Shown: piece after piece, positions 51,490 to 56,487 of the stretch
How the letters are laid out: each line of letters opens with the position of its first letter
Numbering within the stretch: position 1 is the first letter of the stretch
NCBI RefSeq assembly: GCF_016862795.1
Contig: NZ_BONQ01000127.1
Coordinates: 1 to 63,691 of the forward strand
From: Dactylosporangium siamense
GTDB taxonomy: Bacteria; Actinomycetota; Actinomycetes; Mycobacteriales; Micromonosporaceae
DNA: 63,691 bases
Direction: 5' to 3'
Program-made: the position numbers and the translations under genes
The notes under the pieces: model-generated
The model's database searches: none
Told to the model about the DNA's origin: nothing
The model's input: only the letters and a program-made list of their open reading frames with translations

Positions 51490-53406
51490 TCAGGACAGCG
51501 TGCGGGTGCGGTGCAGGACCTGCCGCAGCTGGTGGAGCAGTTCGTCGGTGGTGAAGGGCTTGCGCAGCAGCGGGTCGTCGGTCAGGGTCCGCCCGCCGGG
51601 CAGGTTGCCCGCCGTGTAGCCGGACATGTAGAGCACCGGCAGCTGCGGGCGCAGGAGCCGGGCGGCGTTGGCGAGCTGCGGCCCCGCGATGTCGGGCATG
51701 ATCACGTCGGTGAGGAGCGCGTCGACGGTGAAGGCCGGGTCGGCGCACAGTTCGAGGGCGGCGGTCGCCGAGGCCGGGGCGGTGACCCGGTAGCCGGCTC
51801 TGGTCAGGATCCGCACGACGATGTCGCGGACGTCCTCGTCGTCCTCGACCACGAGGACGTGGCCGCCCGGCTCGCCGGTGCTGGCGGGGACGGCGGTGCC
51901 GGCGGCGGCCGCGGTGTCGGGCAGCTCCGCCGACGGCAGCAGGACCGTGATGGTGGTGCCGCGGCCGGGCAGGCTGTCGATGTGGATGTCGCCGCCGGCC
52001 TCGGTGATGACGCCGTAGGCGGTGGCCAGGCCCAGCCCCGTGCCGTTGCCGGGTCCCTTGGTGGTGAAGAACGGTTCGAACGCGCGGGCGACGACGTCGG
52101 CGGGCATGCCACAGCCGGTGTCGGTGACGGTGAGGCTGACCGTGCCGGCACCCGAAACGCCTGGAGCCAACGGCATGACGCGGGTGGTGGTGACGGCGAG
52201 CCGGCCACCCTCGGTCATCGCGGCGCGGGCGTTGACGACGAGATTGACGATGACCTGTTCGAGCTTGCTGCGGTCGATGGTGACCGGCGGCAGGTCCGGG
52301 TCGAGGTCGGTGGTGAACGTGATGTCCTCGCCGATGGTGCGCTGCAGCAGCTGTTCGGTGTCGGCGACGACCTGGTTGAGGTCCAGGACCTCCGGCTGGG
52401 ACGGCTCGAGGCGGCTGAAGATGAGCAGCTGCCGGGTGAGCGCGGCGGCGCGTTCCGCGGCGTGGCTGATCCGCAGGATGTCGGGCTGGCTCGGATGCGC
52501 CGGTCCGAGGGCGTCGGTGATGTCGCTGGCGTACGCGGTGATGATCGCGAGGAGGTTGTTGAAGTCGTGGGCGATGCCGCCGGCGAGGTGGCCGAGGGAG
52601 TCGAGCCGTTCGGCCTGGCGCAGTTCGTGGTCGAGCCGCTGCTGCTCGGTGACGTCGCGGAGGGTGCCTTCGACCGCGATCGGGGTGCCGTCCCCGCCGG
52701 CGATGAGGATGGCGCGCTGCTCGATCCACAGCTGCCGGCCGTCGGGGTGGTGGGCGCGCACGACGAGCGGTCGGGCCCGGGGCAGCAGCCAGGAGGTCTT
52801 GAACGCCTCCCGGTCCTCCTCGTCGACGATCCCGACGAGCAGCGACGGGTCGGCGCACACCTCGGCGGGGTCGTGGCCGGTGATGACGGTGATCGCCGGG
52901 CTGATGTATTCGAGCCGCCGGTCCGGTTGCAGGCGGAACCGGAAGATGATGTCGATGGAGTGCTCGGCGAGGAGCCGGAAGCGTTGCTCGCTCTCCCGCA
53001 GCGCCGCCTCGGCGGCCCGCCGCTGCCGCCGTTCGTCGGCGTCGCGCAGCTCGCGTTGCACCGCGGGCACGAGGCGGCTGCTGCGGTCCTTGAGGACGAA
53101 GTCGCTGGCGCCGGCCTTCATCATCGCGGCCGCGGTCTCCTCGCCGACCTGCCCGGACACGAGGATGAACGGCGCGTCGCCGCTGTGCTCGCGCAGCGTC
53201 CGCAGCGCCTCCTCGGCGGTGAAGGACGGCAGGTTGTAGTCGGAGATGACGAGGTCCGGCGGATGCTGGCGGAGCGCGGCGCGGAACTGCTCGGCGGTGG
53301 TGACGATGTCGACGGTGAGGTCGAGGCCGCCGCGGTGCAGCCGGGTGACGATGAGGCGGGCGTCGTCGGGGTCGTCCTCGACGATCAGGACCCGGGTCTG
53401 CGGCAT
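51490..53406 (-). CDS. hybrid sensor kinase: receiver-PAS-HisKA-HATPase-receiver
   Basis: A 638-residue soluble hybrid kinase. Residues 1-~120 are a receiver (LIVEDDPDD, Asp in [11 protein letters not shown], Lys in FVLKDRSS). A PAS domain follows ([15 protein letters not shown] through [16 protein letters not shown]). The HisKA box [20 protein letters not shown] carries the phosphorylated His, and the ATPase has [11 protein letters not shown] (N box) and [13 protein letters not shown] (G2). The C-terminal receiver has [13 protein letters not shown], Asp in [11 protein letters not shown] and Lys in [12 protein letters not shown]. It is the last gene of a four-gene overlapping operon. Its ATG shares one base with the stop of the preceding receiver. 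Confidence 0.93.
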
Positions 53407-53846
53407 CAGAGGCTGCCGGGGCGGGCCGGGACGGGTTCGTTGACCAGCAGCCAGTACATGCCGAGCACGTTGGTGGCGTTGACGAAGTCGGCGAACACGA
53501 CGGGTTTGCGCACGTAGCTGTTGGCGCCGAGCCGGTAGCTCTCGACGATGTCGCGTTCCTCGCTGGAGGTGGTGAGGACCACGACCGGCAGCGGCTGGGT
53601 CGCCGGGTCGGCGCGGATGCGCCGCAGCACCTCCAGGCCGTCGTACTTCGGCAGCTTCATGTCGAGCAGGATCAGCGCGGGCCGCAGCGGCGTGGCGCCG
53701 TCGGGCGGCTGCAGCAGCTCGATCGCCTCGGCGCCGTCGGACGCGACGACGACCCGGTTGCCGATGTTGTTCTTCGCGAAGGCGCGCAGGGTGAAGGTCA
53801 CGTCGTCGGGGTTGTCCTCGACGAGCAGGATGACCCCGTCGTTCAT
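53406..53846 (-). CDS. stand-alone response regulator (Rcp1-like receiver)
   Basis: A 146-residue single receiver. MNDGVILLVEDNPDDVTFTL gives the acidic pocket, LILLDMKLPKYDGLEVL the phospho-Asp, VVLTTSSEERDI the switch Thr, and SYVRKPVVFADFV the Lys. It ends with NVLGMYWLLVNEPVPARPGS, a tail typical of receivers paired with phytochrome-like or PAS kinases. It sits between a PAS kinase and a hybrid kinase, overlapping both (4 bp and 1 bp), so it is probably the phosphate shuttle linking them. Confidence 0.93.
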   Translation of the reverse strand: MNDGVILLVEDNPDDVTFTLRAFAKNNIGNRVVVASDGAEAIELLQPPDGATPLRPALILLDMKLPKYDGLEVLRRIRADPATQPLPVVVLTTSSEERDIVESYRLGANSYVRKPVVFADFVNATNVLGMYWLLVNEPVPARPGSL

Positions 53847-55018: not shown

Positions 55019-56487
55019 TGCTGCCCCGGCGGCCGGTCGCCGGTCGCGCCGCCGTCCGGTGGGTCAACGTCGCGGGTGTCGTCGTCGCGGGCGTCGTCGT
55101 CGGAGGTGCGTGGTCGTACCAATGCCGCCGACGAAACGGCGAACCGCGCCTCCGCGCGCAGGTGGGCCCGCAGGACGTCGACGCCGGCCAGGGACTCCAG
55201 GTCGGCCGTCGGCAGCCGGCGCAGCGCCGTCAACGGGTGCCGGCCGCGGATCCGGGTCAGGCGCTCCAGCGCGGTCTCGTCCATGCCGGTGGTGCCGCGC
55301 CGGTTGGACACCACACCGGTGTCGCCGACGCCGGCGCGGTCCCGGTCGCGTTGCGGCGTGAACAGGTACTTCTTGGCGAGCATGAGGTGCGTGCTGGAGA
55401 CCCGCGCGTGCGCCCGCAGCACCAGGTACAGCGCACCGAGCGCCGGGCAGGAGCCCAGCAGCACCCGCAGCCCGGCCGGCGACTGCTCGGCCAGGTCTCC
55501 GGCCGGTCGCAGCCGGGCCAGCAGCAGCTCGGGCAGGCCGGGGCGGTCCATGACCACGCCGAGCCGGTCCCATTCGCCGGCGAGCATGCCGGGGCGCAGC
55601 CGGGCGATGTGCCGGCGGTAGCCCGGCGGGTCGACGCCGAGCAGGAGGTCACGCTCGAGGGCCTCGGGGTCCAGCGCGCCGCTCGGCGGCACGTCGCCGG
55701 GCCGCCAGTGCACGGCGAACTGGCGGAACACGTCCATGAAGTGCCCGGCCCGCAGGCCGTCGGCCGGTGGCAGCGCGGCGAAGGCGGCGTTGAGCCGGCG
55801 GATCGCGTCCAGCAGCTCCGCGGCGACCCCGAGCCGGTGCACCGCCTCGGCACCGCACACGTCGACGGTCTCCTCGGCCAGGGGCGCGAGCGTGCCGTTG
55901 ACGGCCCGTTCGAGGGTCTCCGTCAGCTTGGTCAGCTCGAGGAACCTGACCTCGTCGCGTTCGCCGGTGTACGTGCGGACCAGCCCGTCGTCGAACTCGC
56001 CCGGCAGCGTGGCGAGGCGGGTGTCGCCCCACCACGCCTCGGTGGCCGGCAGGTTCCAGCGGGTCAGGGAGGCGTACGCGTCGCGCTGTGGGTGCCCGGT
56101 GCGCGCCGCGAGCCTGGCGAAGTAGTCGAGGAAGGGCACCCGGTCCGAGCCGGCGGTCAGGTCGAAGGCCCGCTCGGGCCGCTGCCGGTGCGCCGGGTCC
56201 CGCTCCTGGTGGTGCCGGCCCAGGCCGGCGCCGACGAGGCCGAGCAGGACCACGAGGCGCCGGGCCTCCTGCGGCGTGCACCGCTCCGGCACCACCGCCA
56301 GGGTCGACAATGCCGCGGCGGCCGCCGCGGGGAACTCCCCGGCCGGCCGGCGCCTCGCGACGATGTCGCGGTTGAGCTCGGCCATCGGCCCGTGGACCCA
56401 CGCCGCCACCGCCGGCACACCCGCTTCAACACGCAACGCAGCCGAGTGACTACGTTCGGTATGCACGTGATCGAACGTACCACGCAC
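55015..56487 (-). CDS. probable heme enzyme of the PrnB/tryptophan-dioxygenase superfamily, operon leader
   Basis: A 490-residue soluble, mainly helical protein. Several segments recall, from memory, the order in PrnB and indoleamine/tryptophan dioxygenases. These are RDAYASLTRWN, VRTYTGERDEVRFLELTKLT, and FRQFAVHWRPGDVPPSGALD before a long helical stretch. Near the end, RVSSTHLMLAKKYLF offers a histidine like the axial heme ligand. About 35 residues on, SNRRGTTGMDETALERL resembles the GTGG substrate loop. The C-terminus is an acidic tail. The start is uncertain (GTG at 56487, or the later ATG at 56385). It leads an operon with three signalling genes and overlaps the first by 4 bp. The family call is a hypothesis; an uncharacterised helical protein is the alternative. 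Confidence 0.5.
   Translation of the reverse strand: MRGTFDHVHTERSHSAALRVEAGVPAVAAWVHGPMAELNRDIVARRRPAGEFPAAAAAALSTLAVVPERCTPQEARRLVVLLGLVGAGLGRHHQERDPAHRQRPERAFDLTAGSDRVPFLDYFARLAARTGHPQRDAYASLTRWNLPATEAWWGDTRLATLPGEFDDGLVRTYTGERDEVRFLELTKLTETLERAVNGTLAPLAEETVDVCGAEAVHRLGVAAELLDAIRRLNAAFAALPPADGLRAGHFMDVFRQFAVHWRPGDVPPSGALDPEALERDLLLGVDPPGYRRHIARLRPGMLAGEWDRLGVVMDRPGLPELLLARLRPAGDLAEQSPAGLRVLLGSCPALGALYLVLRAHARVSSTHLMLAKKYLFTPQRDRDRAGVGDTGVVSNRRGTTGMDETALERLTRIRGRHPLTALRRLPTADLESLAGVDVLRAHLRAEARFAVSSAALVRPRTSDDDARDDDTRDVDPPDGGATGDRPPGQQ

Follow-up and report, generated by a model that had tools for sequence, protein, structure and literature searches.

A divergent protein of predicted IDO/PrnB-like fold encoded with a histidine kinase relay in Dactylosporangium siamense

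The window, that is, the whole stretch of 63,691 nucleotides analysed here (contig NZ_BONQ01000127.1 of Dactylosporangium siamense), comes from a 12.7-Mb genome and carries a locus of four genes, whose nearest named relatives are found in Dactylosporangium. A leader protein (LEAD) is encoded there together with a histidine kinase (HK1), a lone receiver (RR) and a hybrid kinase (HYB). Could a protein with the fold of a heme dioxygenase serve as the input of such a phosphorelay? The features of the locus are the following.

55015..56466, minus strand: LEAD, a divergent protein of predicted IDO/PrnB fold, with the heme axial-His candidate H367, the substrate-type R255 and two candidate loops, PPSGA (267-271) and GTTGM (398-402).
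53843..55018, minus strand: HK1, a PAS_4-HisKA-HATPase_c histidine kinase with the phospho-acceptor H172.
53406..53846, minus strand: RR, a lone receiver with one Response_reg domain, the phospho-acceptor residue D62 and K114, and no output domain.
51490..53406, minus strand: HYB, a REC-PAS-HisKA-HATPase-REC hybrid kinase (REC, receiver) with D56, H280, D567 and K616.
56467..56487, minus strand: an upstream GTG with a TACGTT (TANNNT-like) block, which is kept in D. aurantiacum and frame-shifted there.

The coordinates confirm the four overlapping minus-strand genes reported in the preliminary description of this DNA, with successive overlaps of 4, 4 and 1 bases from LEAD to HYB. The equimolar translation that it read from these overlaps does not necessarily follow, although coupled translation is suggested. 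Likewise, its leader of 490 aa exists as an open frame (55015-56487, from the GTG at 56487), but the start is probably the GTG at 56466, which gives 483 aa, because the DNA around the first GTG is kept in D. aurantiacum (locus L008), yet that GTG is out of frame there owing to a length difference of one base, and because the protein similarity between the window LEAD and this ortholog starts at residue 8. LEAD residues are nevertheless counted here from GTG 56487, and HYB residues are numbered as in the phospho-acceptor counts below. The TACGTT box lies 7 bases upstream of the shared GTG in the window and 6 bases upstream in L008, and it could be the promoter of a leaderless LEAD message. The HYB frame runs from the ATG at 53406 to the stop at 51490, and Pfam finds in it Response_reg, PAS_3, HisKA, HATPase_c and Response_reg, with HisKA at 21.1 bits, below the cut-off of 26.9.

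LEAD is a patchy accessory gene, present mostly in Dactylosporangium and Actinoplanes-like genera. Matches were obtained in 7 of 61 relatives (own genome included), in 47 of 354 genomes of the family, in 3 of 348 genomes of the order sample (own genome included) and, among 396 genomes of the phylum sample, in the own genome only; the plasmid search for LEAD returned none. The 47 family matches comprise 41 of subfamily 1, to which the window LEAD belongs, four of subfamily 2, and two (G958 and G993, E 6e-4 and 8e-4) that lie in unrelated frames, were judged by eye to be chance and were dropped. Subfamily 2 consists of orphan genes that belong to a different genus of this family (L053, L054, L055 and L056, in genomes G916, G914, G902 and G887), and no homologs of HK1, RR or HYB were found at E up to 1e-5 on these four 18-kb stretches. 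In L055, a GGDEF-EAL gene is situated 4.6 kb from LEAD. D. roseum has a distant relative of LEAD (L057:7703-9052, minus strand), which overlaps a MOSC-domain gene and scores 15.2 bits with PF08933, below the cut-off of 27; the sole match to the kinase set in this locus is receiver-like and about 8.5 kb away.

For subfamily 1, the flanks of the 45 distinct homologs found were covered, namely 44 loci and the window, after six duplicate loci (L073-L078) had been dropped. Each of the 45 has members of the same kinase families linked to it, which means that the arrangement is not due to chance, and the conservation of the leader with the kinases, on which the preliminary description made its proposal depend, is thereby borne out. 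The architectures are LEAD-HK1-RR-HYB (19), LEAD-HYB (20), LEAD-HK1-HYB without RR (4) and other variants (2), as counted by tblastn, except that L066 was counted via other neighbourhood comparisons because its short HYB is below the threshold. This HYB (L066:1679-3190, minus strand) has 503 residues and has lost the PAS domain while keeping both receivers. In L072, LEAD-HK1 is cut by the contig end, and in L019 (Catenulispora) HK1-RR-HYB lies upstream on the same strand and ends about 0.95 kb before LEAD.

The neighbourhood also bears on what LEAD might do. LEAD could be a heme oxygenase acting on an aromatic amino acid or a related compound, with the HK1-type PAS domain reading the substrate or the product, a possibility that we take seriously without expecting it to hold. 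A few neighbours would suit an enzyme: two sister Dactylosporangium genomes have a cytochrome P450 frame that starts 10 bases after HYB (L011:12904-13947 and L012:12832-13872, plus strand), and an alpha/beta hydrolase gene lies near HYB in two other sister Dactylosporangium species (L009 and L010). The P450 frame is short (346-347 aa), and its match is confined to the later part of the Pfam model. However, metabolic genes do not recur outside such sister pairs, no Pfam family being found again downstream of HYB beyond sister species among 12 genes of 10 loci, and a subfamily 1 LEAD has never been found apart from the kinases. Elsewhere, a HisKA_3 kinase and a LuxR-type regulator follow HYB in L013. 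In the window itself, there is a CNNM/CBS-domain membrane protein gene (57963-59009, plus strand), and a frame that by eye looks similar to it and is divergent from LEAD stands just before the CNNM/CBS gene.

Sequence-family searches by themselves leave LEAD without a family. No credible match was obtained in Pfam, NCBIfam, PHROGs or the PDB sequences by phmmer and profile search, with 0 Pfam families at E up to 1 and ribosomal L14 matches at E 0.6-1.1 that were taken as chance. The PrnB model (PF08933) matched none of 14 LEAD family members at E up to 10, hmmscan found neither IDO (PF01231) nor TDO (PF03301) in LEAD or the 14 members, and no H-NOX or NosP domain was matched in LEAD by Pfam or NCBIfam. 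In hmmsearch, PrnB reached 12.6 bits and IDO -1.9 bits in a four-sequence file, for which only the ranking and the bit scores are meaningful, and PrnB reached E 0.011 against a six-frame set. PF08933 has no match across the own genome, and control genomes have equally none, so that this result is uninformative by itself. The resemblance to PrnB, IDO and TDO noticed in the preliminary description thus finds no Pfam match, but it is recovered with PrnB and IDO by profile-profile alignment.

Two AlphaFold models of LEAD were built, the first from an alignment of 14 sequences (the window LEAD and 13 relatives from the genome collection) and the second with the Amorphoplanes ortholog placed first; their mean pLDDT (predicted local distance difference test) is 79.7 and 84.9, and their pTM (predicted template modelling score) 0.81 and 0.88, respectively. 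Searched with Foldseek against the PDB, model 1 is closest to SO4414 (2nwb, E 1.7e-5), followed by human IDO1 (from 1.6e-4) and PrnB (2v7i, 4.8e-4), and model 2 to PrnB (2x67, E 3.6e-5, target-normalised TM 0.69), IDO1 (8.4e-5) and SO4414 (9.1e-5). The Foldseek probability is 1.00 for both models, each search gave 53 matches at E up to 0.001, and the best 50 of the 53 are all IDO, PrnB or SO4414. Independently of structure, a LEAD profile of 45 subfamily 1 and four subfamily 2 sequences was aligned with small reference alignments of our own building, yielding P 7.3e-5 for PrnB and P 1.1e-3 for IDO, compared with P 0.22 and 0.30 for two kinase families as controls and P 1.4e-3 (probability 17%) for the accepted relatives IDO and PrnB. 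The alignments span residues 166-379 of the window LEAD for PrnB and 48-391 for IDO. Subfamily 1 alone gives P 1.6e-4 for PrnB and P 0.012 for IDO.

Some results count against such an assignment. The Foldseek superpositions are loose, because the identity is 12-20% and the root-mean-square deviation 5-12 A; the HH-suite probabilities are modest, 62% for PrnB and 20% for IDO; and subfamily 2 alone is not significant in the profile-profile comparison (IDO P 0.074, PrnB P 0.13). On balance, LEAD is predicted to be a divergent protein with the fold of the superfamily of heme-dependent aromatic oxygenases (HDAO; IDO, TDO, PrnB and MarE). The models and the profile alignment accordingly agree with the PrnB/IDO-like fold proposed in the preliminary description; structure prediction gives neither a fold unrelated to heme dioxygenases nor a protein devoid of a candidate axial histidine, H367 being present.

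This histidine sits in a long helix (348-384) of the AlphaFold model, and the profile alignment places it opposite the proximal His of IDO, in the stretch RAQHIG of bacterial IDO, and opposite a His of the PrnB HHH. In the same alignment, R255 corresponds to the second Arg of bacterial IDO RIRPF, F250 to an IDO Phe, and the LEAD block PSGA to the IDO block GGSAA. Conservation was assessed in a set of 50 sequences (45 of subfamily 1, four of subfamily 2 and the distant relative of L057): H367, F250, G398 and G401 are kept in 50/50, R255 (missing from the L057 relative) and T400 in 49/50, P268 and G270 in at least 49/50, and S269 in 48/50. In human IDO1 the heme is ligated by His346, and Phe226 and Arg231 are substrate residues (PMC6072487); equating H367, F250 and R255 with these three is our own reading of the alignment. 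Arg118 of MarE binds substrate, and paired active-site loops, PASG/GTGGS in TDO and DATG/SLGGR in MarE, have been described (PMC11904535). As the counterpart of the second loop we favour GTTGM (398-402) as a candidate, on account of the 50/50 conservation of G398 and G401. The profile alignments themselves end before GTTGM, and two local alignments put IDO GTGG opposite GVGD (386-389) instead; GVGD is conserved in subfamily 1 only, D389 and G386 not being kept in subfamily 2.

If LEAD had lost its heme and were a structural partner that shares only the fold, the failure of the Pfam IDO, TDO and PrnB models to match it would be readily understood. However, H367 is invariant and the pocket residues are conserved across far-apart subfamilies, which makes this a most improbable explanation. 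An active enzyme is another matter, since LEAD retains the Arg, the Phe and the pocket blocks of the IDO/TDO/MarE substrate site, and the orphan relatives retain the same pocket residues.

The relay exists in a shortened, two-gene form. In all 20 LEAD-HYB loci, HYB starts with an HK1-type PAS domain instead of a receiver, and the remaining 24 of the 44 HYBs start with a receiver, no HYB carrying both. The HK1-type PAS of fused HYBs is 69% (L016) and 74% (L064) identical to the HK1 PAS of the window. The two-gene loci are without the HK1 catalytic part, the lone receiver and the first receiver of HYB; in other words, the HK1 kinase part and RR are both absent in 20 of the 45 loci, and RR alone is absent in 4 more. 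On a tree of HYB kinase cores (41 of 44, three without the anchor motif being left out), the PAS fusion needs at least two changes: L064 groups with its three-gene relative L066, and its PAS is nearest to the HK1 PAS of L066 (84%), not to those of the other fused forms. The LEAD tree shows the same grouping. The distances of LEAD and HYB correlate with r 0.914 (44 loci), a value to which no weight is given here, since it lacks a species-tree baseline.

Because the HK1 kinase part and RR are dispensable in evolution, the core consists of LEAD, the HK1-type PAS and the hybrid kinase, and not of four invariable proteins. Of the single functional unit seen in the preliminary description, the linkage therefore stands and the fixed composition does not. 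In our reading, the parts that would merely carry phosphate from HK1 to HYB could be removed, and LEAD, the PAS, the HYB kinase and its C-terminal receiver were kept. Since LEAD and the HK1-type PAS stay together in the collapsed loci, they are probably the input of the relay; and since the collapse keeps these four parts, we infer the order LEAD, HK1 PAS, HK1, receivers, HYB, with the HK1-type PAS as the probable site where the message of LEAD enters. The retention of this PAS in 20/20 collapsed loci would also suit an enzyme whose substrate or product it reads.

The collapse is also relevant to the reversed direction, in which the kinases and the receiver control LEAD as the output enzyme of the relay. 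Pfam finds no output domain, DNA-binding or otherwise, in RR or HYB, so that LEAD is the sole non-signalling protein in the unit, as this direction would require. However, the lone receiver, its likeliest effector on LEAD, is absent in 24 of the 45 loci that keep LEAD; control could still be exerted via the C-terminal receiver of HYB. We consider the reversed direction unlikely.

The phospho-acceptor residues of the signalling proteins are intact throughout, with HK1 H172 in 24/24, RR D62 and K114 in 20/20, and HYB H280, D567 and K616 in 44/44. A hydropathy of 1.6 is the usual guide for a transmembrane stretch. The maxima of the window HK1, RR and HYB are 0.97-1.34, with no transmembrane-like stretch in these three, and LEAD reaches 1.67 at residue 339, a borderline stretch that falls inside helices of the predicted soluble fold. 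A cytosolic complex of LEAD and the kinases is therefore likely. In one of the 61 genomes (G030), which lacks LEAD, HYB has a match at 1e-100 that belongs to an HK1-RR-HYB triad (L123:5302-9075, minus strand, contig C18). This triad has the same order and domains as in the window (identity 63% for HK1, 63% for RR and 50-51% for HYB), and differs in having no LEAD and in an extra N-terminal stretch of HK1, hydrophobic by eye. It adjoins an ATP-grasp gene and an AMP-binding/PP-binding gene resembling those of nonribosomal peptide synthetases.

Taken together, these data lead us to prefer, tentatively and at a little below even confidence, the reading of LEAD as a heme receptor gated by a ligand, which acts on the HK1 PAS and serves the phosphorelay as its dedicated input subunit. 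LEAD would be a cytosolic protein of HDAO fold that binds heme through H367, and F250, R255 and the PSG block, probably together with the GTTG loop, would form its pocket for an amino-acid-like aromatic ligand. The state that LEAD adopts in response to ligand, O2 or redox conditions would be passed on to the HK1 PAS, probably by contact; HK1 would then phosphorylate the lone receiver, the N-terminal receiver of HYB, or both, and HYB would signal onward via its C-terminal receiver to a further partner. In the 20 collapsed loci, the PAS would have been fused to HYB and the intermediate phosphotransfer parts given up, LEAD being retained. The receptor is favoured over the enzyme because of the strict linkage, the lack of a common metabolic neighbour and the coupled genes, and the stand-alone H-NOX and NosP hemoproteins with their co-encoded kinases offer a precedent for it. 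Because the Arg is conserved, LEAD seems more likely to bind a carboxylated aromatic ligand as well than to be a pure gas sensor.

Other observations pull away from the receptor. The kept R255 and pocket blocks also fit an active enzyme, which stays close as an alternative because these features are conserved, in the orphan relatives too. The four subfamily 2 orphans keep H367 and R255, so that the pocket would not be maintained solely for the control of kinases, and the L123 triad suggests that the PAS domains can work alone. Still more speculative is the fuller proposal, possible but less likely than not, that a new class of heme-based receptor was recruited from the HDAO fold, a coincidence detector for an aromatic amino-acid-like ligand and O2 or redox state that reports to a PAS histidine kinase, in a relay that lost parts on at least two occasions without giving up the receptor or its PAS partner.

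The own genome encodes another protein with an IDO domain. A 1256-residue open frame (contig C156, 28084-31851; L124:6085-9852, plus strand; also L125) contains FHA, IDO (PF01231), FAD-/NAD-binding reductase and cytochrome b5 domains, the FAD part scoring below the cut-off, and is apparently a self-reducing IDO joined to a phospho-reading FHA domain. The fusion was found in 6 of the 61 genomes searched, own genome included, one match being without the first ~120 residues. No paper that joins indoleamine, cytochrome b5 and an FHA domain turned up in a full-text search of the open-licence literature.

How does the LEAD system compare with those already described? No published account of an HDAO-fold protein combined with a histidine kinase was found in open-licence full text, in keeping with the preliminary description, which knew of no described system of this composition. 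Histidine-ligated heme-dependent aromatic oxygenases are described as enzymes that break down tryptophan or take part in making natural products (PMC11791213, PMC11904535), and, among the matches listed, the titles and opening lines of abstracts of open-licence papers that name this superfamily do not mention kinases or signalling. A conserved HDAO branch linked to histidine kinases would add a fold to the heme-based signalling modules and offer a tractable system in which to learn how a catalytic heme pocket turns into a receptor, or in what way a PAS sensor can be supplied by an enzyme. The two-gene form found in nature is, in addition, a ready-made experiment on shortening a phosphorelay. 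With PrnB, IDO and SO4414, LEAD shares the predicted fold, a candidate axial His on a long helix followed by a candidate Gly-rich loop, and the substrate Arg and Phe; it differs from them in lying outside PF08933, PF01231 and PF03301 by hmmscan and in being encoded with histidine kinases. With the stand-alone H-NOX and NosP hemoproteins, which are encoded with histidine kinases (PMC6769237), it shares the arrangement of a separate hemoprotein, in LEAD a candidate one, next to its kinase, whereas the LEAD relay has two PAS kinases and retains the HK1-type PAS upon collapse. Therefore, a hemoprotein with a co-encoded kinase is already known as a kind, and it is the HDAO fold that is, as far as our search extends, new in this role.

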